From Pseudomonadales bacterium (GTDB lineage Bacteria > Pseudomonadota > Gammaproteobacteria > Pseudomonadales > Azotimanducaceae): DNA of 64,000 nucleotides. Below the pieces are notes generated by a model that ran no database searches, was not told the origin of the DNA, and saw nothing but the letters and a program-made list of their open reading frames with translations. This document shows, piece by piece, positions 39,544 to 54,606 of this stretch. The position numbers and the translations under genes were made by a program. The stretch covers positions 248,001-312,000 of the forward strand of contig JANQPF010000009.1 in NCBI GenBank assembly GCA_028285415.1, given 5' to 3'. Every line of letters starts with the position of its first letter. Position 1 is the first letter of the stretch.

Positions 39544-41166
39544 TCATCCTTCTGCAAGGGTTCTGGCAACGTCAGTTCGGTACGCCTGTATTGCCGGAAC
39601 AATGGCGCTCAAGGCGCCAACCAGGAACAACCCCAGCAGTAATAGTGTTTCGGCAGGCGCCCATATCCAACCCGTCATGACAACCCCTCGGGTGCTCGCG
39701 AGCCAGTTGCCGACAAGCTCCATCATTCCATGACCGGCAAGAAAACCCAAGGTGACGCCAAGCAGGGACATCAGCAACCCTTCGACAATGAGATAGAGTA
39801 ATAATTCGAAACGGCTGGCACCGAGACAGCGTAGCATGGCCAGCTCACCACGCCGCGCACGGAGCGATCCGTAAAGCGCCGCAAAGATAGACAACGCCGC
39901 TGTGGCCACCAGTACCCAGGCGAAAGCGCCCAACGCGGTCATCCCCACGCCCACGAGCTGCAGAATTCGGGAAATCTCCATGGCGGGTGCTGCAGCTTGT
40001 AGCGCCCCCGCGGCGTTGATGTCCAACGGCAAAGTGGTGGCAGCCAGCGGGGATCGGTAGCTCAGCAGGAGCGCCGTGATTTCTACATCCTCGTCATGGT
40101 CATGGGCGTTATGGTCGGTATCAGCGTCATGCGCGTGCCCATCATCGCTCTCTCCATGGTCTTCATCGGCATGATGCTCGTGATGCGCTTCATCGTGATC
40201 GTGGTGATCTTCCTCTTCGTGGTGGTGATCCCCCTCCTCGTGATGACCTTCTCCTTCGTCGCGGTGATCCCCTTCCGCGTGATGATCTTCTCCTTCGTCG
40301 TGGTGATCCCCCTCCGCGTGGTGGTGGCCCTCTTCCTCGTGGTGATGTTCACCTTCGTGTTGATGACCCTCTTCGTGGTCATGACCCTCTTCGTGGTGAT
40401 GATCCTCTTCGTGGTGATGATCCTCTTCGTGGGCGTGCTCCGCCTCGTGGTCATGTTCCTCCTCGTGGTGATGCTCTTCCGCCTGCCCCGCTTCTTCGTC
40501 ATGGCCATCCCCCGAGTGATCCTCATCGTGGTCGTGGTCATGGGCGCCTTCCTCTGCATGCAGTTCCCAGACGCTTTCAAGAGACGTCACTACCAGCCGA
40601 TCGATCACCGTACCTGTCGGTGCCAACACGCCCACCACGCGATAAGGCTTTGCGTCGTGGGTGTGGCCGCCATCAACGAGTCCGTGCGCACCGGCAAAGG
40701 TTGAGCCCACCCCCATCGCCGCCGCTTCTGCCACCGCGGCGCCGAGCACCGCTTCCATAGGCGCTGACCAGATTCGACCAGCCCCCAGCTGCGCGTTGTA
40801 CAGATCAACGTAAGCCTTCGTAGTACCGACAATACGGAATCCTCGGAAGCTGTCGCCGAGCGACACCGGAATGGCTGTGGCAACGCGTGAGTCGTCCGCC
40901 CAGCGTTGCGCCTCGTTCAATTTGATATTTCCGGGCGGTACATCCGCATGGTAAACAGCGGAAAGAACGAGCTGTACCGGACTGCCTTGAGCACCGACAA
41001 CCAAGTCAACGCCTTTGGCATCTCTCGACATGGTCTCGGCAAGCTGCACACCGGCCAGCAGCAGCAGGACAATGCTGGCTGTTCCGAGCGCCATCAGCAG
41101 CACGTTGACGGCCGTCGTCAACGGCGACAGGGACAGATTGGCAAACGCCAGCCGCAACCAGGTCAC
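39544..41166 (-). CDS. FtsX-type ABC permease with giant His/Asp/Glu-rich periplasmic loop
   Basis: 540 residues from a GTG that overlaps the ATPase stop by four bases. The N-terminal helix (about 18-40), periplasmic domain, and three C-terminal helices (about 395-420, 455-480, 505-530) are the MacB/FtsX plan. Residues 203-360 form an insertion of about 158 residues with about 50 histidines, in units like HHHEEDH and HHEEGDH, nearly all other residues being Asp, Glu, Gly or Ala. It faces the periplasm next to the last periplasmic strand and should bind many Zn ions. Together with the ATPase at 41163 it is a probable zinc importer or zinc-handling pump, under the Zur box at 42334. Confidence 0.88.
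   Translation of the reverse strand: MTWLRLAFANLSLSPLTTAVNVLLMALGTASIVLLLLAGVQLAETMSRDAKGVDLVVGAQGSPVQLVLSAVYHADVPPGNIKLNEAQRWADDSRVATAIPVSLGDSFRGFRIVGTTKAYVDLYNAQLGAGRIWSAPMEAVLGAAVAEAAAMGVGSTFAGAHGLVDGGHTHDAKPYRVVGVLAPTGTVIDRLVVTSLESVWELHAEEGAHDHDHDEDHSGDGHDEEAGQAEEHHHEEEHDHEAEHAHEEDHHHEEDHHHEEGHDHEEGHQHEGEHHHEEEGHHHAEGDHHDEGEDHHAEGDHRDEGEGHHEEGDHHHEEEDHHDHDEAHHEHHADEDHGESDDGHAHDADTDHNAHDHDEDVEITALLLSYRSPLAATTLPLDINAAGALQAAAPAMEISRILQLVGVGMTALGAFAWVLVATAALSIFAALYGSLRARRGELAMLRCLGASRFELLLYLIVEGLLMSLLGVTLGFLAGHGMMELVGNWLASTRGVVMTGWIWAPAETLLLLGLFLVGALSAIVPAIQAYRTDVARTLAEG
40087..40560. repeat. Degenerate repeat region coding for the His/acidic loop
   Basis: About 474 bases within the permease gene are low-complexity: imperfect repeats around CTCTTCGTGGTGATGATC on the plus strand, the complement of GAT/GAA/CAC/CAT codons. 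The repeats change length in multiples of three, keep the frame and encode the metal-binding loop, residues 203-360. Such DNA can slip in replication, so loop length probably varies among strains. Confidence 0.85.
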
Positions 41167-41837
41167 GACAACGCACTCATGTTGAATTCGTGATCGAGCT
41201 GCCCGCGCACCCGTCCATCATGGGTCACGACCAGGAGCGACGCACCCACGGCCGCAGTCGAATCTTTGAGCAGCGTCAGCGCCTGGCTGGCGTGCTCGTC
41301 GTCCAGCGCCGAGGTCGGCTCGTCTGCCAGCACGAGCGCAGGGCTGTGGACCAGGGCTCGCGCAATGGCAACCCGCTGCGCCTGTCCCTGGCTCAACATC
41401 CCGGGCTTGTGATGCGAAACCTCGGCGATACCGAGCTGTTCGAGCAGTGCGTCAATCCGCGCATGGTCCCGCGGCTTACGGGCAAGCCGCTGCGCGAGCG
41501 CTATGTTCTGATGCACGCTGAGCGCCGGCATCAGAAACAGCCGCTGAAACACCATGCCCATGTGCTCGCCGCGAAAGCGATCGAGCTGCGCGCCGCTCAT
41601 CGCCGTGATGTCGTGTCCAAGAATGCGGATGCTGCCGGTGGCGGGTTGTAAAAGCCCCGCCAGCAGATGGAGCAGCGTCGTCTTGCCGCACCCGGATGAG
41701 CCGATGACGGCGATGCTCTCATCGGCAGCAAGTTGGAACTGTTCGAGATCAACGACCTTCCGTGACCCGTAGCTGAACGTCAGGGCATCAATGTCGATGA
41801 CCTGCGCTGCCGTTTCGCCGCGAGCGCCCTCAGGCAT
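41163..41837 (-). CDS. ABC transporter ATP-binding protein, MacB/LolD type, zinc locus
   Basis: 224 residues: Walker A GSSGCGKTT, signature MLSQGQAQRVAIARA (LSQGQ instead of LSGGQ), Walker B LVLADEPTSALD and the switch His in VVTHD. It belongs to the LolD/MacB class. The ATG 41837 overlaps the end of the MerC-like gene by eight bases, and its own end overlaps the permease start by four, so MerC-like protein, ATPase and permease form one coupled unit. It drives the His-rich permease. Confidence 0.92.
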   Translation of the reverse strand: MPEGARGETAAQVIDIDALTFSYGSRKVVDLEQFQLAADESIAVIGSSGCGKTTLLHLLAGLLQPATGSIRILGHDITAMSGAQLDRFRGEHMGMVFQRLFLMPALSVHQNIALAQRLARKPRDHARIDALLEQLGIAEVSHHKPGMLSQGQAQRVAIARALVHSPALVLADEPTSALDDEHASQALTLLKDSTAAVGASLLVVTHDGRVRGQLDHEFNMSALS

Positions 41838-42231
41838 CGTCGCTCACTACCCGGCTTTCCATGGGTCCCTGGTGCCGGAACCAGCGCCACAGATGCGCAC
41901 CGCCCAGCATGCTCCCGCCGATGACCGTGAGCACAACCTCATAGGGTTCCAGAATGGTCACCGCAGCGATCATGAGGGTTAATCCTGACAGCGCCAAAGG
42001 TGTGAAGATCAAACCATCTCCGACAATCCCTTCGCCCCAGACCACCCAGAGCGTGACGGGTACTGCAAGGAACACCAGCACCACGTGCAGCAGATGATTG
42101 TCGACCAGCTGAGTGGCGACAGGTGCCAGGCTTGCCAGCAGCGGCAATGCCAGACAGTGAATCAGACAGGCCGAAGTCAAGGTGGCTGCGCATACATCCC
42201 ACATGCGTGCGGCTCTGCGGCGTTTCAACAT
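41830..42231 (-). CDS. MerC-family membrane protein
   Basis: About 133 residues from ATG 42231. Four hydrophobic helices are visible and the first carries SACLIHCLALPLLASL, the two-Cys pattern typical of MerC, which transports Hg(II) in mercury operons. No other mer gene is near, and chromosomal MerC-like proteins are often in zinc regulons, so zinc or another soft metal is more likely here. First gene after the Zur box at 42334, leading the ABC transporter genes. A longer frame to 42294 exists but would start close to the box and adds a charged, unlikely N-terminus. Confidence 0.83.
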   Translation of the reverse strand: MLKRRRAARMWDVCAATLTSACLIHCLALPLLASLAPVATQLVDNHLLHVVLVFLAVPVTLWVVWGEGIVGDGLIFTPLALSGLTLMIAAVTILEPYEVVLTVIGGSMLGGAHLWRWFRHQGPMESRVVSDDA

Positions 42232-42333
42232 CTGTCTCGTTCCCGAAGTCTCTGATTTGTTGTATGAATCATGCAGTTTACGACGACGAAGCACGGACCT
42301 TGCCCGTGACGAAGCGCATGGCAGCCAAAAAAA

Positions 42334-42346
42334 GATATGTTATATC
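42334..42346. promoter_or_regulatory. Zur-box candidate 1 (GATATGTTATATC)
   Basis: A 13-bp inverted repeat with arms GATAT/ATATC around GTT, 103 bases before the MerC-like start. It shares NNTATGTTATANC with three other promoter-gap sites in the next 10 kb. It can control merC-like, ABC, DUF3299, zur and phoX genes. Confidence 0.7.
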
Positions 42347-42390
42347 AACGACGAAACATGCGACAGGGCACCGTGCACCAGGGGCTGACG

Positions 42391-43437
42391 TCATACGGGA
42401 CTGGAGACCGCCTCCAGTCCCAATCCGGCAAAACACTCACGCAGCTCCGCGTGGTTCAGGTCCCGGGCAATCATCACTATGCGGGTGCTCCGATTTGGAC
42501 TGGGCCATTGGTCCAGTATTTCTGGCGGGTGAAACACGTGCTGCACGCCGTGGATGACCATAGGCTTATCCATGCCGGCGACGTTGACGATCCCTTTGAC
42601 GCGCAGCAGATCCGCACCGCGGAACAGCATGAGCGACGCAAGACACGCTTCAAAAGATGCGGGGTCCACGGGGTCATCGAACGTCAGACAGCTCGCCTGG
42701 ATGCGGCCATGGCGATTGCGGTCGTGATGTCCGTGATCGTGGTCATGGTGAGCTTCAGCAGAAGCACGCTCGGCACGGAGCCAGCCTTCGACATCGGGGT
42801 GTTTCCCATCGAGCGCATAGCTGCCACCCGCAAAGAGCCAGTCCACGTTGGCCACACCATTCAGCACAGATGAAACCGGCGCCGACGGCGCAATGTCTTG
42901 GAGCCGGTCGAGCAACGGCGCGATTTCGGTCTGTGTCGCGAGATCGGTTTTGGTGAGCAATACCCGATCAGCAACGGCCGCCTGCTTGAGGGCTTCAGGA
43001 TGACTGTCGATGCTGGCGAGGCCATTCACAGCGTCGACCGTTGTGACCACACCTGCCAACGCATAGTGCCTGCTCACGGACGGTTCACCGAGGATCGTCT
43101 GCAGCACGGGCGCTGGATCCGCGATGCCGGTCGTTTCGATGACCACGCGGTCAAACCAGCGCTCACCTCCACGGGCATAGCGACCCGGCGCTGCAGCCAG
43201 CGTCTGTGCCAGGTCCGCACGAATGGTGCAGCAGATACAGCCGCTATCGATCGCCACGAGCGTGTCATCGGCAATCGGCGTCATGAGATGATGATCTAAT
43301 CCGACCTCACCGAACTCGTTCACTAGGATCAGCGTGCGACTCAGTTCGTTCGTCTCCGCCAGATGGCGCAGGACCGTTGTTTTGCCGCTGCCGAGAAAGC
43401 CGGTCAGCACGGCAATGGGGATGCGAGAGTCAGTCAT
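42391..43437 (-). CDS. COG0523/CobW-type GTPase, FGEVG subtype, His-rich
   Basis: 348 residues: P-loop GFLGSGKTT at 13-21, the metal motif CICC at 67-70 (SGCICC), VNEFGEVGLDHHL, the guanine motif TKTD at 162, and a CobW_C domain at the end. A His-rich stretch of about 14 residues at 230-243 (HHDHDHGHHDRNRH) is typical of metallochaperones. It should deliver zinc to target proteins using GTP. It begins one base before the stop end of the DUF1826 gene, so both are under the Zur box at 44052. Confidence 0.92.
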   Translation of the reverse strand: MTDSRIPIAVLTGFLGSGKTTVLRHLAETNELSRTLILVNEFGEVGLDHHLMTPIADDTLVAIDSGCICCTIRADLAQTLAAAPGRYARGGERWFDRVVIETTGIADPAPVLQTILGEPSVSRHYALAGVVTTVDAVNGLASIDSHPEALKQAAVADRVLLTKTDLATQTEIAPLLDRLQDIAPSAPVSSVLNGVANVDWLFAGGSYALDGKHPDVEGWLRAERASAEAHHDHDHGHHDRNRHGRIQASCLTFDDPVDPASFEACLASLMLFRGADLLRVKGIVNVAGMDKPMVIHGVQHVFHPPEILDQWPSPNRSTRIVMIARDLNHAELRECFAGLGLEAVSSPV

Positions 43438-44022
43438 CTACGCCGCAATGTCCATGGTCATGACCACACGATCTACCCGCTCTTGAGGTGACCGATGCAC
43501 GACACCGCAGCGGGATACCGGGTCGAATGCTGCACCCTTGAAAATACCAACGCTACCGGGCGCCAATTGCTGCACGGTGTCAGGCGCAGGTGTCTGGTCG
43601 ATGCTGCCATCGTTAGCGCGCGCCACGTGTTCGCTTCGCAGCCATTCGGTGCCCGGTCCCAGCAGCGTGGCGATGAGGCGCAGACGCACCGCATCCATGT
43701 GGAACCTGGGACAGGTCGCATGACGGGAATGGGACATGCGCAGACTCACGGCCGCAGCCTCACTCAGCTCGCCGAATCGGGAAGTCCAGTGCCCAACCCA
43801 TGCGAGCCAGGGCTCGAAACCCGGAATGTCAGCAATTTGCTCGACCGCACGCTCACGCCGCAAATCGGTCGCAGGGCGCTCCCGGCCAATGAGTGGCACC
43901 TCGAGGCTTGCCGCCAGTGCACGACGCTCGACAAGCGTTGCGGCGAAAGAGGTCACCGGCCGCGGCACTGCATCGAAGATTTCGATCGGACCTTCCTTCT
44001 GCGATGGGTCGTGTTCAGGCAT
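43438..44022 (-). CDS. DUF1826 protein, zinc-regulon
   Basis: 194 residues from ATG 44022 (GGAG eight bases upstream); an ATG at 44061 would lie inside the Zur box and is rejected. The protein matches DUF1826 as I remember it: CPRFHMDAVRLRLIATLLGP followed by GTEWL, and late GVVHRSP. The FHMD and VVHRS motifs give an HxD...H order like Fe(II)/2OG oxygenases, with an Arg soon after the last His. Genes of this family sit beside COG0523 GTPases in Zur regulons. Function is unknown. Confidence 0.82.
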   Translation of the reverse strand: MPEHDPSQKEGPIEIFDAVPRPVTSFAATLVERRALAASLEVPLIGRERPATDLRRERAVEQIADIPGFEPWLAWVGHWTSRFGELSEAAAVSLRMSHSRHATCPRFHMDAVRLRLIATLLGPGTEWLRSEHVARANDGSIDQTPAPDTVQQLAPGSVGIFKGAAFDPVSRCGVVHRSPQERVDRVVMTMDIAA

Positions 44023-44051
44023 TTCGTCTGCTCCGTCAGCTACCGGCGAAT

Positions 44052-44064
44052 GATATAACATAAC
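44052..44064. promoter_or_regulatory. Zur-box candidate 2 (GTTATGTTATATC on minus strand)
   Basis: It lies 30 bases before the DUF1826 start (minus) and 58 bases before the Fe-ADH start (plus), in a 100-base divergent gap. One site can thus control both directions: DUF1826-CobW, and Fe-ADH, 89-aa protein, DUF4198 and the second GTPase. Confidence 0.78.
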
Positions 44065-44122
44065 AAAAACTGTACCATCACCGGTCCGCTTTCGCGGATG
44101 GGAACCAACTCGGGATAGACAC

Positions 44123-45259
44123 ATGGCCACGCTGACCTTCATGACCCAGACCCTCTTTGACCACGGCGCGAGCCAACAGCTCGGCCAGGTGCTCAGCATG
44201 CACGGCATCCGGCGCCCTTTGCTATGCACGGACAGGGGTCTGGTTGAGCTCGGCATGGTCAACGATCTGGTGGGTCATCTCGGCAACGACGCGGCGTTGA
44301 CCATCTACGACGGCACCCCGGAGAATCCAACGCAGGCCGCTGTCGCGGATGCGGTCTCAAGATACCACGATGCCGATTGCGACGGCGTGGTAGCCCTCGG
44401 CGGCGGTTCGTCCATGGATCTTGCCAAGGCCGTGGCACTGGCTGTCACACACGAAGGTGATCTCATTGAGTATACCGCCGGCCTCGGCGGCGTCGAAAAG
44501 ATTGGTGAAGTAGCCCCGCTCATTGCCATCCCGACCACGTCCGGTACGGGCAGCGAAGTGTCGAGCGGCTCTGTCATCATTATGGACAACGGCGAAAAGC
44601 TCATCCTCATCAGTCGCAACCTCGTTCCCCGCACCGCCATCTGCGACCCTTCGTTGACCCTGGGCTTGCCACCGCAGCTGACCGCTGCCACCGGCATGGA
44701 CGCCATGACGCACTGCATCGAGGCGCTCCTGTCACCGGAGGTGAACCCTCCGGCAGAAGCCGTAGGCTGCGACGGAATCAAACGCGGCATCCGCGAGGGC
44801 AATCTGCAACGCGCGGTACGTGACGGCAGCGACCAAGACGCCCGGTGGCACATGATGATGGCGGCAACCGAGGGTGCCATGGCATTCAGCAAAGGATTGG
44901 GCGCCGTACACTCCATGAGCCATGCATGCGGTGCCGACCAGAATCTGAGACTTCACCACGGCACGCTCAACGCTGTCATTCTGCCGACCATTCTCGATTT
45001 CAATCGCGATCACGTCGGCGACAAGTACGCGCGCTTGAACAGAGCCATGGGGGTTGATGCAAGCGCAGATCCGGCAGATCACATTCGTGAGCTCAACGCA
45101 TCGCTTGGGTTGCCTGCCAATCTTGGCGAAATGGGCGTGCAGAGCGAGGCCATACCGGCGCTGGCGCAGCACGCCGCCAAAGACGTCTGCACGTTCACCA
45201 ACCCACGCCCTGCCTCGGTGGAAGACTACGAAACGCTCTATGCAGTGGCACTCTCGTGA
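44123..45259 (+). CDS. Iron-containing (group III) alcohol dehydrogenase
   Basis: 378 residues. Family marks: GGGSSMDLAKAVAL (NAD site), PTTSGTGSEVSSGSVI, and metal ligands in TGMDAMTHCIEA and GAVHSMSHACGA...LHHG. Enzymes of this type use Fe(II) rather than Zn and oxidise alcohols or reduce aldehydes. The gene is divergent from DUF1826 and has the Zur box 58 bases upstream, so it may stand in for zinc alcohol dehydrogenases when zinc is scarce. It shares GTGA with the next small gene. Confidence 0.92.
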   Translation: MATLTFMTQTLFDHGASQQLGQVLSMHGIRRPLLCTDRGLVELGMVNDLVGHLGNDAALTIYDGTPENPTQAAVADAVSRYHDADCDGVVALGGGSSMDLAKAVALAVTHEGDLIEYTAGLGGVEKIGEVAPLIAIPTTSGTGSEVSSGSVIIMDNGEKLILISRNLVPRTAICDPSLTLGLPPQLTAATGMDAMTHCIEALLSPEVNPPAEAVGCDGIKRGIREGNLQRAVRDGSDQDARWHMMMAATEGAMAFSKGLGAVHSMSHACGADQNLRLHHGTLNAVILPTILDFNRDHVGDKYARLNRAMGVDASADPADHIRELNASLGLPANLGEMGVQSEAIPALAQHAAKDVCTFTNPRPASVEDYETLYAVALS

Positions 45260-45525
45260 AGAAGGTCCAGAAGACCGCGCTCAGCCCGGAAGACGCCCGC
45301 GAGATCGTCAGCGACGTCACCAACGCGGACAGAGACCGGGCACGTCTCGCGATCAGCGCCGGCGTGCAGGCTGCGCAGGGACAGTGGATCGAAGCCCCGC
45401 TCATTGCCGAAGCGCTTGCACTCGAGCTGATTGCCATTGCCGAACACAACCGCTCGGGCGCGCACGTCGCGGCGTACCTGCGCGGGCTTGCTGAAGCAAT
45501 CGACACAACGGCTGGCTATCACTAA
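45256..45525 (+). CDS. 89-residue hypothetical protein in zinc operon
   Basis: A small, helical, Ala-rich protein (LAISAGVQAAQGQWIEAPLIAEALALELIAIAEHN). It begins with GTG overlapping the stop of the Fe-ADH gene by four bases, so translation is coupled. No signal peptide or Cys; two His only. I do not recognise a family. Confidence 0.68.
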   Translation: MKKVQKTALSPEDAREIVSDVTNADRDRARLAISAGVQAAQGQWIEAPLIAEALALELIAIAEHNRSGAHVAAYLRGLAEAIDTTAGYH

Positions 45526-45537
45526 CGGACACGACAG

Positions 45538-46371
45538 ATGACAACACTCCTCCGCCAGAAACCGAGCTTCAACATCGCAGCCGCACTCTTATTTTTCGCG
45601 GTGGCAGGCATTGCGCCGAAGAGCGAAGCACATCAGCAGTGGCTTGCGCCAAACTTCTTTGTCGAATCGGCCGATAGTGCCTGGGTGAGCTTTGATCACA
45701 CGTTCAGCGACAGGCGGTTTCAACCCGGCTCAGCGCCCAGCAGCTACTACCAATGGTGGTCTGTCGGACCGGACGGCGTTAAAAGATCGATTCCCTTTCT
45801 ATTTCTGGGCAAAACCCGAACCGTCGGAGAACTCGAGATCGATGCCCCTGGCACCTACCGCCTGGAAGGCGAGGAAGCCAACATGGCCTGGACACAGATC
45901 AAGGTTGGCGGAGAAAGCCGTTGGCAGCCTGGTACGCGCGCCGCCTTCGCCAACGGTGAAGACGAGATCATCAGCTCACGAGTCTATTTCAACAAAGCCA
46001 TCGCATACGTGACGCTGGGTACACCGAGCCGGGAAGTGCTTGCCGCAAGCGGAGACCCTCTGGAGATCCTGTTCGTCGATCATCCCAACGAACTGGTTAC
46101 AGGCAAGCCCGCGCGGATAAGAGTATTCGGCAACGGCGAACCCAGGCGCGGACAGAAGGTAGAACTTCACGCCGAAGGGGGCGCGGGCCACGATGAACCG
46201 ATGAGCGTGTGCACCACCGACCAGGCAGGCACCTGTCAGTTCACGCTCCCAACCAAGGGCAGATACCTGCTCATCGCCAGTGCAGAGGGCAGGCATGAGA
46301 ACGGGTCGGAGACGGACGGATTTTCCAACAGCGTTTCGGTGATCGTTGCAGCGCGAGAGGCGACACAATGA
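45538..46371 (+). CDS. DUF4198 periplasmic protein (NikM-like), N-terminal His after signal peptide
   Basis: 277 residues with a signal peptide ending SEA and the mature protein starting HQQWLAPNFF. The His-x-x-W-L-x-P start after cleavage is the mark of DUF4198 proteins, whose N-terminal amino group and His bind metal. A beta-sandwich follows and a C-terminal Ig-like module (KVELHAEGGAGHDEP...TLPTKGRYLLIAS). Such proteins are linked to Ni, Co, Cu or Zn uptake. It lies 12 bases after the 89-residue gene and 100 bases before the second GTPase. Confidence 0.85.
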   Translation: MTTLLRQKPSFNIAAALLFFAVAGIAPKSEAHQQWLAPNFFVESADSAWVSFDHTFSDRRFQPGSAPSSYYQWWSVGPDGVKRSIPFLFLGKTRTVGELEIDAPGTYRLEGEEANMAWTQIKVGGESRWQPGTRAAFANGEDEIISSRVYFNKAIAYVTLGTPSREVLAASGDPLEILFVDHPNELVTGKPARIRVFGNGEPRRGQKVELHAEGGAGHDEPMSVCTTDQAGTCQFTLPTKGRYLLIASAEGRHENGSETDGFSNSVSVIVAAREATQ

Positions 46372-46473
46372 CCTCCGACGCCAGACAACTAAAAAACGCT
46401 CAAGCAAACCGGGGCCACCGCTGCGTCCCACTTTCAACTTCTCAATCGTTCATAACGTAAGGACCTGAGACTC

Positions 46474-47685
46474 ATGCAAAGCAATATTCCGGGTACGCTC
46501 CCTGTCACCGTCCTGTCGGGGTTCCTCGGCGCGGGCAAAACCACGGTATTGAGCCACGTATTGAACAATCGGCAGGGCAAGAAAGTCGCCGTCATCGTCA
46601 ACGACATGAGTGAAATCAATATCGATTCTTCACTGGTGCAGAATGAGGTCTCTCTCAATCGCAGCGAAGAGAAACTGGTGGAGATGAGCAATGGCTGTAT
46701 CTGCTGCACGCTCAGGGAAGACCTGCTGGAGGAAGTGACCAAGCTCGCAAACGACGGACGCTTCGACTACCTGCTGATCGAATCCACCGGCATATCCGAA
46801 CCGTTGCCGGTGGCGGAGACGTTTACGTTTGCCGACGAAGACGGTGTGTCGCTATCGGACGTCGCCAAACTGGACACCATGGTGACGGTTGTCGATGCCG
46901 TGAATTTCCTGAAAGACTACGACGCCGCCCAGTATCTGCGTGAGACGGGAGAGTCCCTGGGTGAGGACGACGAGCGCAGCGTAGCGGACCTGCTGGTCGA
47001 TCAAGTCGAGTTCGCCGACGTCATTCTCGTCAGCAAAACCGATCTCGTCGAAGATACGGAAGTCGAGCGCCTCATTGCCGTTCTGCAAACGCTCAATACC
47101 GACGCGCGCATCATTCCGATCGTCAAGGGTGACGTCGACATCGATGCCGTGCTGGACACGGGACTATTCGATTTTGCGCGCGCCCAACAGGCACCGGGCT
47201 GGCTTAAGGAGATGCGCGGCGAGCATGTACCCGAAACAGAAGAGTATGGCATCGGCAGCTTCAGCTACGTTGCCCGCCGCCCGTTCCATCCGGAGAAGTT
47301 CTACGAGTTTCTTCACGGTACAGAAAAATACGGCAAGCTGATTCGTTCCAAGGGTTACTTCTGGTTGGCAAGTCGACCGGAGTTTGCCGGGCAATGGAGC
47401 CAGGCCGGTGGGATTGCGCACTATGGATTCGCGGGCATGTTCTGGAAGGCTGTCCCCAAATCCAACTGGCCGACAGACGCAGACTACCTCGCCTCAATCG
47501 AGAAACAGTGGGTTGAGCCCTTTGGCGACATGCGTCAGGAGCTCGTGTTCATCGGCCAGGGGTTGGACGAGGAACAGATGGTCAACGCCTTGGACAGCTG
47601 CCTCTTGAGCGAAGAAGAGGTGCTGCGCGGAAAGTCCTACTGGAAGACGTTGCCCGACCCGTTTCCTCTCTGGCAACAGAGCTGA
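46474..47685 (+). CDS. COG0523/CobW-type GTPase, NDMSE subtype (ZigA/YciC-like)
   Basis: 403 residues: P-loop GFLGAGKTT at 16-24, [14 protein letters not shown] near 42, CICC at 75-78 in NGCICC, guanine motif SKTD near 188 and a long CobW_C domain with [16 protein letters not shown]-like text. The NDMSE motif marks the Zur-regulated subtype known as ZigA/YciC, different from the FGEVG subtype at 42391. It should bind GTP and zinc and pass zinc to client enzymes. Last gene of the operon led by Fe-ADH; it ends in the 21-bp repeats at 47677. Confidence 0.93.
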
Positions 47686-47752
47686 GGGCTCCGGCAGCAG
47701 AGCTGAGGGCTCCGGCAGCAGAGCTGAGGGCTCCCGCAGCAGCGCTGAGGGC
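47677..47752. repeat. 21-bp tandem repeat, 3.6 copies, spanning a stop codon
   Basis: The unit CAGAGCTGAGGGCTCCGGCAG occurs twice perfectly, once with one change, and once in part. The first copy holds the final codons and stop of the second GTPase gene, so each copy repeats that TGA. The rest fills the gap before the convergent folE2 end. It may act as a spacer or mild terminator, or be a slippage product. Confidence 0.8.
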
Positions 47753-47766
47753 GCGACGAAGCGCCA

Positions 47767-48714
47767 TCAGGGAATCGGCAGGTACCCGTTCGTCACACCC
47801 TTGGTGAACACACTCACAGCATCATGCGGGTGCAGGCTTTCCATATGCTCAACCCGCACCCAGAAGTCGCGATAGCGGGACTCGTTGTTCAAGGCTTTCT
47901 GAACGCGCCGTCCGGCGTCCTCACAGAACATCAGGTTGGCGGCGTTACGTCTGGCGAACTCCTGTTCGTCCTCGCGCTTGACTGCTGTCTGGACAGCAGT
48001 TTGCAATGTCTCCTCAGCCAGCTCGATCAGTCCCGAAATCGGAAACTCGGTGATGCCCGGCTCCAGACGCGTGAGGATGTGCACTTCGCTGCGCTGGGAG
48101 TGGGGAGTCGCTGCAATCCCCTCTTCCGTACCGAGCCAGGCTCTGACGTCCGCCGCGGATACTGAGCTCTTTCCGGCAAAATCTTTGTCGAACTGAGTCT
48201 GGATGATCTGCCGGGACAGCGCCGCGGAGCATGGGCAGGTTGAGGAGTAACGGACCGTCACACCAAGCTCAATGTGCAGCTCACCATCAATGAAGGTGCC
48301 TTTGAGCAACACCGGGTAGCTGTTCCAACCGGCGTTGTCCGACAAAAGCGCGGGGCGTCGCAACAGGTGTTCGAAGTCGAACTGGATGAACGCTTTCGAG
48401 CTGAGATCATTGTGCGAATCGAGGACGTCGCCAAGCACCTCAGTCATGACTGCGGGCGTGAGCGCGTGCGCCTCGGCGCTGGCGTCGAGGATGAGGTACA
48501 AGCGGGACATGTGAATGCCTTTTGCCTGCGGGTCCTCCAGATTGACGTATATCTGTGCTTTGGCAGACACGCCGTGGACCTTGCCTTCATCCGATACATG
48601 GAGCGGCACATGCACGTTGCTCATGCCAACCCAGTCTAGCGTGCCCTGGGGGTGCAAGTGTTCGCGTGACGCAATGTCGGGCATTTCTGCCACCGCTGCC
48701 GTGAGATCGGTCAT
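47767..48714 (-). CDS. folE2: GTP cyclohydrolase IB, FolE2 (zinc-independent)
   Basis: 315 residues with KGIHMSRLYLIL, YSSTCPCSAALSRQI (the active-site Cys in TCPCS) and HSQRSEV, all typical of GCYH-IB. It makes dihydroneopterin triphosphate for folate and queuosine from GTP and works with Mn or other metals when the Zn-dependent FolE fails. folE2 is a known Zur target in several bacteria. The Zur box 3 lies 46 bases upstream of the ATG, which has AAAGGTAG as ribosome site. Confidence 0.94.
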   Translation of the reverse strand: MTDLTAAVAEMPDIASREHLHPQGTLDWVGMSNVHVPLHVSDEGKVHGVSAKAQIYVNLEDPQAKGIHMSRLYLILDASAEAHALTPAVMTEVLGDVLDSHNDLSSKAFIQFDFEHLLRRPALLSDNAGWNSYPVLLKGTFIDGELHIELGVTVRYSSTCPCSAALSRQIIQTQFDKDFAGKSSVSAADVRAWLGTEEGIAATPHSQRSEVHILTRLEPGITEFPISGLIELAEETLQTAVQTAVKREDEQEFARRNAANLMFCEDAGRRVQKALNNESRYRDFWVRVEHMESLHPHDAVSVFTKGVTNGYLPIP

Positions 48715-48759
48715 AACTACCTTTCAACTCCTGATTGGGTATTACTGAATACGGGATCC

Positions 48760-48772
48760 GTTATGTTATAAC
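48760..48772. promoter_or_regulatory. Zur-box candidate 3 (GTTATGTTATAAC)
   Basis: Perfect arms GTTAT/ATAAC. It agrees with the gammaproteobacterial Zur core GTTATAWTATAAC at 12 of 13 positions. It lies in the divergent gap 46 bases before folE2 and 55 bases before the 76-residue gene, so can repress both. Confidence 0.85.
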
Positions 48773-48827
48773 ACAGATGTCGACTGGCATTCCGCCTCAC
48801 CATTCACCCGCTTAGAGTCCACGCATC

Positions 48828-49058
48828 ATGATGTCAACGCCTTTTCCGGAGAACTACGAGCAGTGGCAGCACTGCATCACCGTCGAATGTGGCATCCCGC
48901 TGACACCTGCCTTCGTGGCTGAACGCCTGGCTGTGTGGCGCAACGAACAACGGGAAGAAACGCAACGCTTCCGCAGCCTCTACGGAGAGGATTACCTGCA
49001 GGCCGTGATCGGCTGGTTCGAGCGGGCTGAACGCGAAGTGAGTCTCCCCGGCGCGTAA
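48828..49058 (+). CDS. 76-residue hypothetical protein, probable Zur target
   Basis: The text NYEQWQHCITVECGIPLTPAFV and LYGEDYLQAVIGWFERAE indicates a soluble, mainly helical protein with two cysteines. I recall similar small proteins beside zinc-regulon genes in other gammaproteobacteria but know no function. It has the Zur box 55 bases upstream and stands alone before the convergent lipoprotein gene. Either ATG 48828 or 48831 may start it. Confidence 0.72.
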   Translation: MMSTPFPENYEQWQHCITVECGIPLTPAFVAERLAVWRNEQREETQRFRSLYGEDYLQAVIGWFERAEREVSLPGA

Positions 49059-49075
49059 GCGTCCGCGCCGCACCG

Positions 49076-50011
49076 TTAACCGGGGGTCACGTTCACGCGG
49101 GTGGCTGGATTCAGGTCTTCCCGGGGATCCGTCACCAGACCTGCCGGGAACTGCACCAACGATGGGACACCTTCACGGTCCAGGCAGAGTTCGTGATTGT
49201 TGTCGCCGTCGCCCAGATCACCAATGGCAAACGGCGCCACCTCCAGCGTTTCCCCTTCCCCGGTTGTCAGCGTCACCCTGTAGGCGGAGCGTTCTTTGTC
49301 ATCAATATCTCCACCACCGGGTTTGGTGACACCGCCGGCCCAGGTGACGCGAACGACCTGTTTCGTGCCTGCCGGACACCCGCTGCCACCACCGAATCGA
49401 ATGGCGGTGGCCGCCTTGTCGAGATGCCACGCTGTATCCGGGACAACCTCGGCCAGCTGCAGCGTCGGGCCCGCCTCCAGCAGCGTTACCTCAGTGTTCG
49501 CACCCCGAAAATTCACCTGCCCGTCCATCGACAGCAGGTTGCCGGTTATCTCAACACTCGCCGGTTGATCTTCGGCGCTGCCGAACTGCCCCACTGTCAG
49601 CACCGTTCTGAGTTCACCATCGTCATCGGCGGGCGCCAGCGTAACGCAGGTCATCTCCCCGACCGCACCGGACTCGGACACGATCCGGAAGTCACCGGCC
49701 TGCAGCGTTGAGAAATCAATCTCGTGCGAAAAAATGACCGGCATGCCGTCCTTCCCCGACGCCCCGTCACAGATGACGCGATCAGCGAGATCCGGCAGTG
49801 CATCATCCAACCCAAAGAAAGCCGAGAGCAGCGTGGCGCTCTTGCCGTTCGCATCCCGGGTGGCGCCCACGTCCGTCGTCGTCGTGTCTTCCTGTGTCGC
49901 ATCCGCCAGCGTGATTTCGTAGGTCGCTGCCTGATAGATGGTCTGAATCCGGTCACACCCTGAAACCAGGGAAACGGTAGAGAGCAGAATGATGATCGAT
50001 AGGCGTTGCAA
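49076..50011 (-). CDS. Secreted lipoprotein, unknown function
   Basis: 311 residues if begun at TTG 50011, which has GGGGAGAG upstream and gives an ideal lipoprotein signal (MQRLSIIILLSTVSLVSGC). The frame is open to a TTG at 50047, which would spoil the signal. The mature part is acidic and beta-rich, with several Cys that may pair (VICDGASG, GEMTCVTL, GSGCPAG, HELCLDREG). No family recognised. It follows the SMP-30-like gene closely. Confidence 0.72.
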   Translation of the reverse strand: MQRLSIIILLSTVSLVSGCDRIQTIYQAATYEITLADATQEDTTTTDVGATRDANGKSATLLSAFFGLDDALPDLADRVICDGASGKDGMPVIFSHEIDFSTLQAGDFRIVSESGAVGEMTCVTLAPADDDGELRTVLTVGQFGSAEDQPASVEITGNLLSMDGQVNFRGANTEVTLLEAGPTLQLAEVVPDTAWHLDKAATAIRFGGGSGCPAGTKQVVRVTWAGGVTKPGGGDIDDKERSAYRVTLTTGEGETLEVAPFAIGDLGDGDNNHELCLDREGVPSLVQFPAGLVTDPREDLNPATRVNVTPG

Positions 50012-50040
50012 GTCAGGTCTCTCCCCAGCGTGGTAGCTTC

Positions 50041-51096
50041 TCAACAAAAATGTGCACCCTGAGCATGCACGTAACAGGCGTAAATCGACTGACTGGCGGT
50101 CATATAGAGCCGATTGCGTTTCACCCCGCCAAAACAGAGATTGGCACAGATTTCCGGCAGCCGGATCTGGGCGACCCGCTCACCCTCGGGATTGAAGATG
50201 TGCACCCCGTCATAGCCATCCCCAACCCAGCCTGCACTCGACCAGATGTTGCCGTCGGTGTCGCAGCGTATGCCGTCGGCAAACCCCTGCTTCATCTCGC
50301 CGTCGAGTTCCATGGCCATCGACGTAAAGTCCCGACCTCCTCTGAGAGACTGCGCATCAACCACTTCCCAGGTTCTGATCACGGCCGGGGCCGCCGCACC
50401 GTAGTGTGAGCCTCCGGTATCGGCCACATATAGTCGGGAGTAGTCCGGGGAGAAGCAGATGCCATTCGGCTTATAGATATCGTCTGCTACCTGGTGCAAC
50501 TTTCCCGACTTCATGTCCAACCGATAAACGGCTTCTTTCTGATGCGGCTGCGGAGAGCCCGTCTTGTCTTCGTGGCCTTCGTAAGCACCCAGGCTGCCGT
50601 AGCCGGGATCGGTAAACCAGAGGTCGCCGTTCGGATGCACAATGCCATCATTCGGCGCGTTCAGCGGTTTCCCGCCATACGTTTCCGCCAGGACGGTGAC
50701 CGTGCCATCCAGCTCATAACGCACAACCCGATGTGTATCGTGCTCAAACGATATCTGGCGCCCCTCGAGATCGAACGTGTTCCCGTTGCTGAAATTCGAC
50801 TGTCGGCGGAACACCGATACGTGATTGTCCTCTTCGAGAATCCGATACTGCAGGTTGGCAGGAATGTCACTCCAGACTACAAACCGGCCGGCCGCATGCC
50901 AGGCCGGGCCTTCCGCCCAGAACATGTCGCGGCTGGTAAAGAGTCGCTGAATGGGTGTCTGACCGATGAAGCCGCTGAAGGCGGGATCGATCACCACCCG
51001 GTCCGGGTGTGGGTAACGCGTCGGGGTATAACCCGCACTGGCGGTTACCGCCGGCAGCAAAGCGCTGGTGGCGCCCAGGAAGTTCCTGCGATTCAT
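50041..51096 (-). CDS. SMP-30/gluconolactonase-like beta-propeller, exported
   Basis: 351 residues. MNRRNFLGATSALLPAVTASA is a Tat-like signal. The propeller shows EGPAWHAAGRFVVWSDI, NAPNDGIVHPNGDLWFTDPGYG, KPNGICFSPDYSRLYVADTG and GFADGIRCDTDGNIWSSAGW, with Glu, Asn and Asp positions for the usual divalent metal (Ca or Zn). The family hydrolyses lactones. It lies between a lipoprotein and a kelch protein, all minus strand, possibly one operon behind the Zur box at 52255. Confidence 0.88.
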   Translation of the reverse strand: MNRRNFLGATSALLPAVTASAGYTPTRYPHPDRVVIDPAFSGFIGQTPIQRLFTSRDMFWAEGPAWHAAGRFVVWSDIPANLQYRILEEDNHVSVFRRQSNFSNGNTFDLEGRQISFEHDTHRVVRYELDGTVTVLAETYGGKPLNAPNDGIVHPNGDLWFTDPGYGSLGAYEGHEDKTGSPQPHQKEAVYRLDMKSGKLHQVADDIYKPNGICFSPDYSRLYVADTGGSHYGAAAPAVIRTWEVVDAQSLRGGRDFTSMAMELDGEMKQGFADGIRCDTDGNIWSSAGWVGDGYDGVHIFNPEGERVAQIRLPEICANLCFGGVKRNRLYMTASQSIYACYVHAQGAHFC

Positions 51097-51135
51097 GTTT
51101 GTCTCCTCTCCCCACTAACAGGCTACCGCGTCAGG

Positions 51136-52152
51136 TTAAGCACTCTCCGGCAGCACGAGCACCTCGTTGAGGTTGCTCGTACCGCTGCCACCCGGCTTGG
51201 TCGCGCCGCCTATCACGTAGGCCCTGTTGTCAATCAATCCGGCGCCGATACCGTGCCTTGGCGTCAGCATATCTGGCTGCGACAGCCAAAGATCACGGCT
51301 CATCACATAGCGCCACACATTCGGGAATACTCTGGCCTCTGGCTGGAAAATCTCACCGCCGAAAACGATGAGACCGTCGTCTACCATCACGCTGGCGGTG
51401 CCCGCCTGTGGCAGCGGCAGTGGAGCCGCTTCGCGCCAGCGATCTGCTTTTCGATCGTATATCTCCGTCACCGCAAGATTGCCTTGCGCGGTGCGCCCTC
51501 CCGTCACAATCAGCTGATCGCCAAGCCACCCGCCGGTTGCGCTATTGCGCGCAGTTGGTATCGGTGCAGCTGGTTGCCATTCACCGCTAGCGTCCCATTG
51601 CCAGTGATCGGTGATCTCACTGTGGTCACTACGTTTGCTGTTTGCGCTGCCACGAGGGGATTGTCCCGTCACCAAGTGTACAACGCCGTCGGCATGACAG
51701 GCGAGAACACCTTCCGCCTGTGGCTTGGGCAGGACGCCAACGCTGATCCAACCTGCTTCCGTCAGCTCATGCACCGTGTCCCGCATGCGCCAGACGTCCG
51801 TGTAGCCTCCATTGAAACCGCCGATCATGAAGAGGCGCGTGCCGGTGCTCACCAACGCGGCATGGTGGCGATCTTCCGGCAGATCAGGCAGCGCATCCCA
51901 ACGATCCAATCGTGGATCGTAGGCATAACTCGCGCTCGTGAAGTACGGCACGCCGAGGCGCGCGGCGATGCCGCCAGCGACGTAGAGTCGGCCCCGGTGC
52001 ACGCAGCTGTAGAGTTCCTGGGTATTGATCGGCAACGGTGCGGCCGCTTGCCACGTAGCGCCGGTCACGTTTGCATCAAGCGTCTGACCGCGGCCAAGCG
52101 GGCTTGCCAGAATGGCAGCGCTTGCGAACAGACACTGACGACGGGAGAACAT
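51136..52152 (-). CDS. Kelch-repeat beta-propeller, Tat-exported
   Basis: 338 residues from ATG 52152. SRRQCLFASAAILASPLGRG is a Tat-like signal. At least five kelch blades are seen (GRLYVAGGIAAR, TRLFMIGGFNGGYTDVW, HLVTGQSPRG, DQLIVTGGRTAQGNLAVTEIYD, DGLIVFGGEIF, RAYVIGGATKPGG). Role unknown; periplasmic kelch proteins may bind sugars, or sialate. It is divergent from the TonB receptor with the Zur box 103 bases before its start. Confidence 0.85.
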   Translation of the reverse strand: MFSRRQCLFASAAILASPLGRGQTLDANVTGATWQAAAPLPINTQELYSCVHRGRLYVAGGIAARLGVPYFTSASYAYDPRLDRWDALPDLPEDRHHAALVSTGTRLFMIGGFNGGYTDVWRMRDTVHELTEAGWISVGVLPKPQAEGVLACHADGVVHLVTGQSPRGSANSKRSDHSEITDHWQWDASGEWQPAAPIPTARNSATGGWLGDQLIVTGGRTAQGNLAVTEIYDRKADRWREAAPLPLPQAGTASVMVDDGLIVFGGEIFQPEARVFPNVWRYVMSRDLWLSQPDMLTPRHGIGAGLIDNRAYVIGGATKPGGSGTSNLNEVLVLPESA

Positions 52153-52254
52153 CAGATGCGTGAACTTGATGTAGATCGAGTCACCGGGCTTCCTCTCAGG
52201 CAGATGAGGCAACGATGACAGTCCGACGTAGTTTCGGCAAGACCACACCAGATT

Positions 52255-52267
52255 GATATGTTATAAC
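52255..52267. promoter_or_regulatory. Zur-box candidate 4 (GATATGTTATAAC)
   Basis: The site lies about midway in the 220-base divergent gap, 103 bases from the kelch start and 105 bases from the TonB-receptor start. One arm has a single mismatch. The location makes the receptor a likely zinc-starvation gene. Confidence 0.75.
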
Positions 52268-52371
52268 GTCACCCCCCAGCAAAGACGAAACACCACCAAG
52301 CATCGCATCAGCCGATCGGTGTGAGGTGTTTACGGCTTGCCGGTATTTCAACCGTTGATAGAAAGAGTGAA

Positions 52372-54561
52372 ATGGACAAACACATCTCCAGGCCAGTGGC
52401 GCTCGCAATCGCGGCCGCTCTGGCAATACCCTGCACAGTGCCTGTCGCAGCAGAAACCGCCCCATCAAGCGACGATGAGACAATTGTCGAGGAAGTTTTT
52501 GTACTGGGTAAGCGCCGCGCTTATCAAGGCAACATCGACCCCCTCGAAAACCCAACTGCCGATCAACTGATCGATGAGGAACTGCTGCGCGAAGCTGGCG
52601 CCATCAGTCTGGACGATGCGTTGGATCTGTCGGCATCTGTCGCCCGCCAGAATAACTTTGGCGGCCTGTGGAACAGCTTTTCGGTTCGCGGCTTCTCAGG
52701 TGACATCAACCTGCCGAGCGGGTTTCTAGTCAACGGATTCAACGCGGGACGCGGATTCGCCGGTCCACGAGACATTGTCGGTATCGAGACCGTGGAGGTG
52801 CTCAAGGGGCCGCGCTCGGCACTTTTTGGTCGCGGTGAACCTGGCGGCACCGTTAACCTCGTTACCAAACGACCACAGTTCGAGAAAGGCGGTGACGTTC
52901 GCGCCACCTTCGGTCGCTGGGACCAGATGCGCTTCGAGGGCGATTTTCAGACCGTGGCGGGTTCGAACGACGAAATCGGTATCCGTTTCGTTGGATTCTA
53001 CGAGGACGCAGAGAGCTTCCGCGACACCGTCGAGACTGAAAAGCGCGGGCTGTATCCGTCGATTACCTGGGACATTGCCGATGCCACCAGCATCACCTAT
53101 GAGTTGGAGTACACCGAGCAGGAAATTCCCTTTGACCGCGGCGTTGTGTATGCCGACGCGTTCGGCTTCTCACCTCGCGATACCTTTGTGGGAGAGCCCG
53201 GAGACGGACCGATCGAAACTGAAGTGGTTGGGCATCAGTTGGAACTGCAGCACAACTTCTCCAACAACTGGAGCCTGCTTGCGGGGCTCGGCTACAGAGA
53301 TACATCATTTGAGGGCGACGCTTCCGAGCCAAATTTCGGCGGCCGACAGACTTATTTTCTCGATGGGCGCAACGTCTCCAGATTTTTCCGCGAGCGAGAC
53401 TTCGAATCGGACTACTTTGTCGCTCGCGCGGAAGTGGCCGGTGAATTCGAAGTGGGCTCTGTGCGTCACCGATTGCTGATCGGAGCTGACTATGACCGGT
53501 TCGAAAACAGCCTGTTCATTCTCCGTTACCGACCCGGCTCCGCAGGTACGGATGTCAGCCTCCTGGACCCCGAAGAGTTTCTACTCCTTGATGTCTTTAA
53601 TCCGGTCTACGGTCAATACGCACGACCCGTTCCCGGACCAAACACGGACAGAGAAGAGGACCTGGACGGGTTTGGTATCTACATCCAGGATCAGATTGAT
53701 CTCACGGATCAGCTGCAGATTCGACTGGGTCTGCGCTGGGACGATTTCGAGCAAGATCTCACCAACCTGCTGGCCTCCCCGGCAGCCACGACCAGTTCGT
53801 CCGACGACCGCATCTCTCCACAGTTCGGCGTCGTCTACCGAGTCAACGATGGAGTCAGTCTGTACGCTTCTTACGGCGAAGGCTTCCGCCAACAGACCGG
53901 CTCCGATTTCCAGGGCAATCAGTTTGACCCCAACATCACGGAGTCAGCCGAAATTGGATTGAAGCTGGATCTGGCTCAGTTTTCCGAAGGCATTTCAGGC
54001 TCACTGACCGTGGCACTCTTCGACGTCGAGCAGAGCAACATACTGGTCAACGACGACCGAGACTTTGTCACCGGCTTTTTCTCTATCGATGCGGGTGAAG
54101 CTGAGAGCCAGGGCATTGAGATTGACGCGGACGTTGCGTTCGAGAACGGATTCAACGTCTGGTTTTCCTACGCCTTCACAGACGCCGAATACACGACAAG
54201 CAATCCCGACGCCGACGGATTTGGCGTAATCGAAAAAGGCGATCCGTTGATCAACTCGCCGGAACACCAGCTGAGCCTGCAGATCAGCCAGCGTTTCGAA
54301 GTTGGCGGTATGCCTGCGCAAGTTGGTGCTGGTGTTCAATACACTGATGAACGCGCCGGTTTTGTTACGTCTGACTTCGAACTGCCTGACTACACCATCG
54401 CAAGGTTTTTTGGACAGATCGAGCCGACTGACCGACTTACGCTGCGCTTCGACCTGGACAACGCGTTCGATGAGACGTTCTACACGAACTCATTTGCGGA
54501 CGTCTGGGTAGGACCGGGCACGCCCCGTCGCTGGCGCCTAACCGCGGCATATTCGTTTTAA
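52372..54561 (+). CDS. TonB-dependent outer-membrane receptor
   Basis: 729 residues from ATG 52372. Signal peptide (ALAIAAALAIPCTVPVAA), TonB-box-like ETIVEEVFVLG, plug domain (SFSVRGFSGDINLPSGFLVNG, IETVEVLKGPRSALFGRGEPGGTVN) and a 22-strand barrel ending AYSF. The plug text is of the siderophore-receptor class. With the Zur-type box upstream it may import a zinc-chelate rather than, or as well as, a ferric siderophore. Terminator at 54569 follows. Confidence 0.92.
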   Translation: MDKHISRPVALAIAAALAIPCTVPVAAETAPSSDDETIVEEVFVLGKRRAYQGNIDPLENPTADQLIDEELLREAGAISLDDALDLSASVARQNNFGGLWNSFSVRGFSGDINLPSGFLVNGFNAGRGFAGPRDIVGIETVEVLKGPRSALFGRGEPGGTVNLVTKRPQFEKGGDVRATFGRWDQMRFEGDFQTVAGSNDEIGIRFVGFYEDAESFRDTVETEKRGLYPSITWDIADATSITYELEYTEQEIPFDRGVVYADAFGFSPRDTFVGEPGDGPIETEVVGHQLELQHNFSNNWSLLAGLGYRDTSFEGDASEPNFGGRQTYFLDGRNVSRFFRERDFESDYFVARAEVAGEFEVGSVRHRLLIGADYDRFENSLFILRYRPGSAGTDVSLLDPEEFLLLDVFNPVYGQYARPVPGPNTDREEDLDGFGIYIQDQIDLTDQLQIRLGLRWDDFEQDLTNLLASPAATTSSSDDRISPQFGVVYRVNDGVSLYASYGEGFRQQTGSDFQGNQFDPNITESAEIGLKLDLAQFSEGISGSLTVALFDVEQSNILVNDDRDFVTGFFSIDAGEAESQGIEIDADVAFENGFNVWFSYAFTDAEYTTSNPDADGFGVIEKGDPLINSPEHQLSLQISQRFEVGGMPAQVGAGVQYTDERAGFVTSDFELPDYTIARFFGQIEPTDRLTLRFDLDNAFDETFYTNSFADVWVGPGTPRRWRLTAAYSF

Positions 54562-54568
54562 ACTGGAC

Positions 54569-54606
54569 GCGAGGCGTAGCACTCGGGTACTACGCCTCGC
54601 TTGTTG
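54569..54606 (+). terminator. Strong intrinsic terminator after TonB receptor
   Basis: GCGAGGCGTAG and CTACGCCTCGC form a perfect 11-bp stem with a 10-base loop, followed by TTGTTG. It lies eight bases after the receptor stop and separates it from the next gene. Confidence 0.75.

Follow-up and report, generated by a model that had tools for sequence, protein, structure and literature searches.

The stretch of DNA analysed here (the window) comprises 64,000 nucleotides, positions 248001-312000 of contig C2 (JANQPF010000009.1) in the 5.97-Mb genome of a Pseudomonadales bacterium (GCA_028285415.1). It holds four of the boxes that mark a considerably larger gene island, which is very probably a clustered regulon of the repressor Zur. 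This reading, put forward in an original prediction made from the window, is borne out by the arms of the boxes, which are those of the Zur box, by the location in the island of both Fur-family proteins other than Fur itself, and by the recurrence of boxes before orthologs in relatives. The flanking genes, predicted to form a zinc-starvation set, do comprise zur, folE2, two COG0523 genes, DUF1826 and a TonB receptor gene, and many of them are standard Zur targets. Unprefixed coordinates refer to the window and those with the prefix C to contigs; published work is cited from excerpts of the articles.

Zur boxes in the window and in the genome

The four 13-bp sites were located exactly where they had been predicted, at 42334, 44052, 48760 and 52255: box 1, GATATGTTATATC (42334..42346, plus strand); box 2, GTTATGTTATATC (44052..44064, minus); box 3, GTTATGTTATAAC (48760..48772, plus) and box 4, GATATGTTATAAC (52255..52267, plus). 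As also claimed, all four precede genes in promoter gaps and three of these gaps are divergent, namely those between the DUF1826-COG0523 genes and the operon of an iron-type alcohol dehydrogenase (Fe-ADH; box 2), between folE2 and the small gene orf76 (box 3), and between a kelch gene and the TonB receptor gene (box 4). The gap of box 1 splits two minus-strand genes, and this box lies upstream of merC-ABC-permease-DUF3299-zurW(-phoX). Taken with their flanks, the sites are palindromes with arms GWTAT/ATAWC and the centre GTT, and the 12 of 13 match of the best site to GTTATANTATAAC that had been reported is right, provided that N is scored as a match. By sequence they are Zur boxes of the gammaproteobacterial type, with arms GWTAY/RTAWC around GTT. 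The published 23-bp proteobacterial Zur box reads GAAATGTTATA-N-TATAACATTTC (PMC4219657), and longer arms are possible in relatives, one of which (L073) reads TAATGTTATGTTATAACATTA, identical to the published box except for the centre and the outer ends.

A 21-bp weight matrix was trained on nine sites of the own genome, which scored 17.6-26.4 bits in leave-one-out mode. Scanning of the window with this matrix returned the four sites with 22.6-26.4 bits and no other position with at least 12 bits. With box 2 excluded from training, the four sites scored 22.9-24.8 bits, an overlapping register of box 4 scored 11.6 bits and an unrelated place 8.5 bits; the top score in 20 Markov-simulated 64-kb windows was 15.6 bits. 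The short pattern with two mismatches was discarded as a window test, as its 8 matches versus a shuffle mean of 9.68 represent no enrichment, and the matrix was used instead.

In the 5.97-Mb genome GWTATGTTATAWC occurs in seven exact copies, all of them within 48.5 kb at C2:290334-338787, and the reversed control in none; the rough probability of such clustering by chance is about 2e-12. The description of the sites as packed into 10 kb was therefore too narrow: the array extends another 38 kb, the island is about five times longer, and more than half of the 48.5-kb stretch with exact boxes lies outside the window. Allowing one mismatch revealed an overlapping pair of boxes at C2:317954/317959, beside znuCBA-type genes, a second overlapping pair at C2:464689/464694, before a distant TonB gene, and three weak single sites elsewhere (C15:218064, 9.4 bits, inside a predicted gene; C15:271377, 12.1 bits; C30:212340, 12.0 bits). 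Eight of the nine predicted Zur boxes of the genome are thus gathered in the island of ca. 50 kb, and seven of these eight are situated between divergent operons. Among 120 family genomes, including the own one, 38 possess at least one exact site, with a maximum of seven per genome, reached here and in G035.

The second overlapping pair (C2:464689-464706; L017:9690-9707) precedes genes for a TonB receptor, an ABC ATPase and a protein of 1116 amino acids, and a similar trio was seen behind boxes in G115 (L050, L051) and behind a variant box in L078.

Two Zur proteins of the island

Three Fur-family proteins are encoded in the genome: one Fur (C15, 152 bits) and two Zur-like proteins, both in the island, ZurW (38122..38607, minus strand; FUR domain, canonical class) and ZurI (gene at C2:323784). 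Both zur genes lie behind Zur boxes. In E. coli Zur, one zinc site is formed by C103, C106, C143 and C146 (site A) and the other (site B) by H77, C88, H96 and E111, and Tyr45 is described as unique to gram-negative Zur (PMC4219657). ZurW retains the four cysteines of site A, all four residues of site B, Tyr45 and Arg65. ZurI equally retains site A, Tyr45 and Arg65, and its site B reads S77 C88 Q96 E111, i.e. two of the four ligands are lost.

We aligned 41 sequences (39 together with two solved Zurs), in all of which Tyr45, Arg65 and the four cysteines are present. All four regulatory ligands were found in 27 of them, Arg at position 96 was the sole change in three, and H77 was lost in 11: five in the ZurI clade, five in a second clade and one on a Pantoea plasmid. 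The other Fur-type protein of this plasmid, which also has no Tyr45, was excluded from the alignment; regulatory zinc ligands are missing from both. The two altered clades are separate in the tree, where H77 is retained by the closest sister sequences of the ZurI clade. The ratio of nonsynonymous to synonymous substitutions (dN/dS) was 0.11-0.25 within the altered clades (20 pairs) versus 0.13-0.24 in six canonical pairs, these values being rough, with a high proportion of synonymous differences in many pairs; it was undefined for one further pair (ZurW and G115). Since these ratios resemble those of canonical Zurs, simple decay of ZurI is disfavoured.

Boxes precede the zurI-class genes in the own genome, G109, G045 and G112, and weakly (13 bits) in G013. 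Two Zurs occur in 10 of the 45 family genomes with a Zur match. In G045 and G013 (genus g14, 94% complete) no Zur but the altered protein was found alongside Fur; with H77 changed and C88, H96 and E111 kept, it may be retuned rather than blind. ZurI probably reads the same boxes as ZurW and responds at a different zinc level.

Genes behind the boxes

Operon extents around the boxes are those that we infer from strand and spacing. Box 1 heads a run on the minus strand that begins with a MerC-family membrane protein, a candidate zinc permease (41830..42294; Pfam MerC, 54 bits), and continues with the ATPase (41163..41837; Pfam) and the permease (39544..41166; sequence and Pfam) of a MacB/FtsX-type ABC system, the latter with a long His/Asp/Glu-rich insert, the DUF3299 protein of this system (38653..39537; Pfam DUF3299, 23.1 bits versus 22 needed), zurW and, starting 7 bp after zurW, a PhoX-family alkaline phosphatase (36174..38114; Pfam PhoX, 543 bits). 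The His/Glu/Asp-rich stretch of the permease (frames near 40083-40704) yields long spurious open frames on both strands. PA4066 of Pseudomonas aeruginosa is a DUF3299-type partner, and the DUF3299 protein of the island resembles it. The ABC importer of the prediction did not stand in that form, as the ABC system of the window is MacB/FtsX-like and the ZnuABC-type genes lie outside the window; the families and the box make the MerC/ABC/DUF3299 system a candidate zinc importer.

Thirteen loci with ZurW-class zur genes were examined: the own one, L050 and 11 others from a family-wide search, which are a subset of its matches. Canonical-class zur and MerC are grouped in 11 of them. In ten (L050, L140, L142, L143, L145, L147, L148, L151, L152 and L153) merC adjoins zur, with Pfam MerC confirmed in every case, and in the own genome merC heads the zurW run, three genes away. 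A box is present upstream of merC in all 11 grouped loci (in L140, within the called 5' end); of the remaining two, L139 is cut off by the end of its contig and L154 carries DUF3299 in that place. Another MerC homolog (55%) was noticed beside an exact box in L038 (G029:C109).

The PhoX domain is full-length (profile positions 2-515 of 515), and homology to PDB 4amf/3zwu (E 1e-127) spans residues 68-645 of 646. Orthologs (E up to 1e-80) occur in 29 of the 120 family genomes. Three of the five closest (57-63%), in G072, G052 and G038, are found directly behind DUF3299 and permease genes with no zur between; a box heads the PhoX-containing run in G038 and lies further up in G072, and the G052 stretch ends before that point. 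Moreover, in G052 a single gene separates PhoX from Fe-ADH, which has no box of its own there. The other two, in G055 and G090, have a different context. PhoX is usually tied to phosphate starvation. Because PhoX has iron as cofactor and PhoA zinc (PMC5454538), zinc sparing in the periplasm is the simplest reading, and PhoX is a candidate zinc-free phosphatase of the zurW operon, with predicted activity and Fe/Ca cofactor.

Box 2 separates two operons. On the minus strand are a DUF1826 protein (43438..44022; Pfam) and a COG0523 GTPase (42391..43437; cobW and CobW_C domains); on the plus strand, the group III Fe-ADH (44123..45259; Pfam Fe-ADH; close to 4-hydroxybutyrate dehydrogenase, with 481 of the 500 bits needed for that model), an 89-aa protein, orf89 (45256..45525; no Pfam or NCBIfam match), a DUF4198 protein (45538..46371; Pfam) and ZigA, a zinc metallochaperone GTPase of COG0523 (46474..47685; NF038288, 703 bits, passing the equivalog cut-off of 600). 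Orthologs of Fe-ADH (E up to 1e-100) are present in 14 of the 120 family genomes, the own one included. Locus L126, which begins at a contig edge, was dropped, and the own box was kept out of the matrix for ortholog loci. A Zur box of at least 16 bits was found 46-92 bp before the Fe-ADH start in 10 of 13 loci, representing genera g1, g2, g7, g33 and g35, and no such box was seen in the other three (L121, L123, L124). A review cites alcohol dehydrogenase as a zinc-free paralogue under Zur (PMC6103462), and Fe-ADH is therefore a new case of an idea already noted. A second iron-type alcohol dehydrogenase was observed in the island (L016:4805-5947), preceded by a weak candidate box of 13.9 bits (L016:5964, C2:335963).

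At box 3, FolE2, the GTP cyclohydrolase type that replaces zinc-dependent FolE1 (47767..48714, minus strand; NF010200, 318 bits, passing the equivalog cut-off of 215; Pfam GCHY-1), faces orf76 (48828..49058, plus strand), which encodes a small protein of 76 amino acids kept in zinc-starvation clusters. No match to it was found in Pfam, NCBIfam or PDB sequences. Its model consists of four helices with a mean predicted local distance difference test score of 87.5, and a fold search of this model against PDB gave no match (best E 5.6). Relatives of orf76 occur in 7 of 369 class genomes, among them the own one, in 13 loci of named genomes and on 520 of 72,556 plasmids, 496 of the 520 being from Klebsiella; the gene table of the plasmid collection is incomplete, 19 of 20 and 57 of 60 displayed rows naming no gene under the orf76 match. 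We inspected 21 loci besides the own one (L071-L089 and two soil plasmids, 3-20 kb each), and all 21 have zinc-type genes or a Zur box beside orf76. Counted as zinc-type were COG0523 (represented on one plasmid by a protein annotated as GTP-binding), ZigA, FolE2, DksA, DUF1826, HisI, CysRS, ThrRS, Znu and Zur. Such a neighbour is present in 19 loci (in L076, DksA only), and in the other two, L073 and L078, a Zur box is immediately upstream. Setting aside four loci that appear identical to ones first chosen for a box (L083, L085, L088, L089) leaves 17 that were found without regard to boxes, of which 15 have a neighbour and two a box. Gene order varies among the loci. In 21 aligned sequences the first cysteine of the conserved pair is invariant and the second is present in 20. 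Our best guess is that the small orf76 protein may partner with COG0523 chaperones or with their clients. On the soil plasmid of Pantoea soli (L112, NZ_CP032704.1:154655-170828), folE2, dksA, zigA, cysS and an orf76 homolog are gathered in a similar cluster together with genes for two Fur-type repressors.

Behind box 4 is a TonB-dependent receptor of the siderophore-receptor class (52321..54561, plus strand; TIGR01783, 290 bits, cut-off 223.5), which more likely starts at the ATG of position 52374, ahead of a signal-like stretch, than at the listed 52321. It is followed on the same strand by genes for an acyltransferase-like protein, an ABC ATPase and two further proteins (54616..59207), whose homologs in G093 (L059) follow a TonB gene and a Zur box; the last two may be ABC-2 (exporter-type) permeases. 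An exporter-type ABC pump is thus apparently paired with a zinc-starvation TonB receptor at 52321-59207, and the pairing is repeated in G093. On the other side of box 4 are kelch, SGL and orf323. Kelch, SGL, orf323 (49076), orf89 (45256) and the DUF4198 protein (45538) were dropped as conserved Zur targets: no relative's locus that was fetched contains a homolog of them, and they count as members by position only.

Four further boxes lie beyond the window. The one at C2:317954 separates znuCBA-type genes from genes for DUF1636, the third COG0523 of the island and WD40 proteins; the binding protein of the former is closest to AztC, with 264 bits, under the cut-off of 350. At C2:323742 hisI and a flavoprotein gene are opposite zurI, a gene for a 120-aa protein and cysS; at C2:331242 genes for DUF2817, an M19 peptidase and pyrC are opposite thrS; and at C2:338775 a GST-like gene is opposite a second DUF1826 gene. 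Copies of cysS (C12), thrS (C26) and hisI (C12) exist outside the island. Those of cysS and hisI adjoin each other at C12:208120-209918, which recalls zinc clusters, without an exact Zur box. The non-island ThrRS (C26:235286-237031) shows 40% identity to the island copy, with its N-terminal part unaligned; the island copy has a TGS domain.

Proposed zinc response and its alternatives

For binding, repression, zinc response and the role of each target we infer the following from the genes and boxes. With ample zinc, zinc-loaded Zur dimers on GWTAY-GTT-RTAWC boxes would block the promoters; as zinc falls, the sensor site would lose its metal and Zur would release the boxes. This would derepress import (the ZnuABC-type system, TonB receptors and the MerC/ABC/DUF3299 system), the metal chaperones of COG0523, and proteins that replace or duplicate zinc enzymes, namely FolE2, PyrC, HisI, CysRS and ThrRS and probably also PhoX and the iron-type alcohol dehydrogenase. 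ZurW would act as the canonical sensor. Tentatively, and at somewhat less than an even chance, we propose a response with two sensors, in which the canonical Zur shares the boxes with a self-controlled second Zur, whose sensor site is rebuilt or weakened and whose DNA-reading head is intact, and the two either set different thresholds or work against one another. Their regulon would include a zinc-free PhoX, the iron-type alcohol dehydrogenase, MerC as a zinc permease and orf76 as COG0523 partner.

It is also possible, again at somewhat less than an even chance, that ZurI represses in the ordinary way, its sensor site having merely been rebuilt from nearby residues, and that the two Zurs are redundant. 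The own ZurI indeed has additional His and Cys residues adjacent to the sensor site, and G045 and G013 hold the H77-altered protein as their only Zur, which should therefore repress there. However, site B has suffered multiple losses in both altered clades (two of four ligands in the own ZurI, three in G112, one each in the other three members of its clade, and two or three each in the five of the second clade), and the single change C88S in this site abolishes regulation by E. coli Zur (PMC4219657). Redundancy is likewise at odds with the altered Zur being carried beside another Zur in the own genome, in G109, in G112 and in four g35 genomes.

That some of the members added here (PhoX, Fe-ADH, orf76, MerC) are passengers without a zinc role is unlikely. 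The kelch and SGL genes do seem to be passengers of the cluster, 3 of the 13 Fe-ADH ortholog loci have no box and two of the five closest PhoX orthologs are located elsewhere; yet the links recur across genera despite differing gene order, and hitch-hiking alone would not preserve them. Binding of Fur, or of a different regulator that senses iron or peroxide, to the boxes, with the island as an iron or general metal-stress cluster, would suit the one genuine Fur encoded, the siderophore class of the TonB receptor and the iron use of the PhoX and Fe-ADH families, but it is highly improbable given that the motif arms equal the Zur box, that FolE2, ZigA, ZnuABC-type genes, PyrC, CysRS, ThrRS and HisI are neighbours, that fur is on a different contig and that Tyr45, specific to gram-negative Zur (PMC4219657), is present in both Zur-like proteins.

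Several points weigh against the assignment of the island to Zur. Zur is the best NCBIfam model for ZurW and ZurI, with 97 and 108 bits, which is below the equivalog cut-off of 167. Over the 120 family genomes the exact sites number 84 and those of the reversed control 22, which makes a single exact site in a relative little proof. The weak sites C15:271377 and C30:212340 sit in divergent gaps and are unexplained. Of 14 palindromes found, six, with scores between -0.7 and 18.5 bits, are without the GTT/AAC spacer. Four of these six fall on predicted genes (L109, L110, L111 with 14.7 bits and, at the edge, L107) and two are clear of genes (L106, 3.5 bits; L108, 18.5 bits, at C7:25130 near a response-regulator gene), L108 being unexplained as well. 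Completeness of the assembly is 99% and its contamination 3%. Neither kelch, SGL, orf323, orf89 nor the DUF4198 protein has a homolog in the fetched loci of relatives (252 records, own excepted). Finally, the island CysRS retains Cys, Cys, His and Glu at the zinc-ligand positions of its motif; it is thus an extra copy and not a zinc-free one, and its role as a zinc-free substitute is ruled out. Zinc residues are likewise kept in the CysRS, ThrRS and HisI paralogs described by Haas et al. 2009 (PMC2770081).

Comparison with known systems

Zur-regulated clusters of COG0523 genes and zinc paralogs were described in Pseudomonas fluorescens and Cupriavidus metallidurans by Haas et al. 2009 (PMC2770081), who also mention a Zur-regulated cluster on pLVPK, a plasmid of Klebsiella. 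Common to the clusters of the first two species and the island are Zur boxes, COG0523, FolE2 and paralogs of PyrC, CysRS, ThrRS and HisI, as well as DUF1826 (in a figure legend) and COG0523 subfamily 5 with WD40 and znuABC genes. The island differs in having eight boxes and two zur genes within 48.5 kb and in also containing MerC, Fe-ADH, PhoX and orf76; the main text of that article uses none of the words MerC, PhoX and dehydrogenase. The PA4063-PA4066 ABC system of P. aeruginosa, which zinc shortage induces, shares with the island system an ABC ATPase, a permease and further proteins (PMC10393844, PMC8561739), whereas the latter is headed by MerC, has the His-rich insert inside the permease and contains zurW and phoX in the same gene run. 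In comparison with E. coli Zur (PDB 4mtd), both Zurs have Tyr45, Arg65 and the four structural cysteines and ZurW has all site-B ligands; ZurI differs by Ser at 77 and Gln at 96, and the box spacer is GTT here rather than ANT (PMC4219657). Unlike known PhoX (PDB 3zwu, 4amf), the present one is placed behind a zur gene.

In the open literature surveyed by titles and the beginnings of abstracts, and in the excerpts of PMC5007448 and PMC11340326, iron-type alcohol dehydrogenase, MerC, PhoX or a second, altered Zur were not tied to Zur control. The kind of system is thus already known, and the combination of two Zurs with PhoX, iron-type alcohol dehydrogenase, MerC and orf76 appears to be new within the literature searched.

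If the control of phoX by Zur is true, zinc scarcity, beside phosphate scarcity, would switch this bacterium to an iron phosphatase, and a genetic handle on the link between zinc, phosphorus and iron in the ocean would become available. The small, conserved orf76 is a testable neighbour for COG0523 chaperones, and the island as a whole is a ready list of candidates in a single place. How a single box sequence can serve two zinc thresholds would be shown by a second Zur in which the sensor site is altered.

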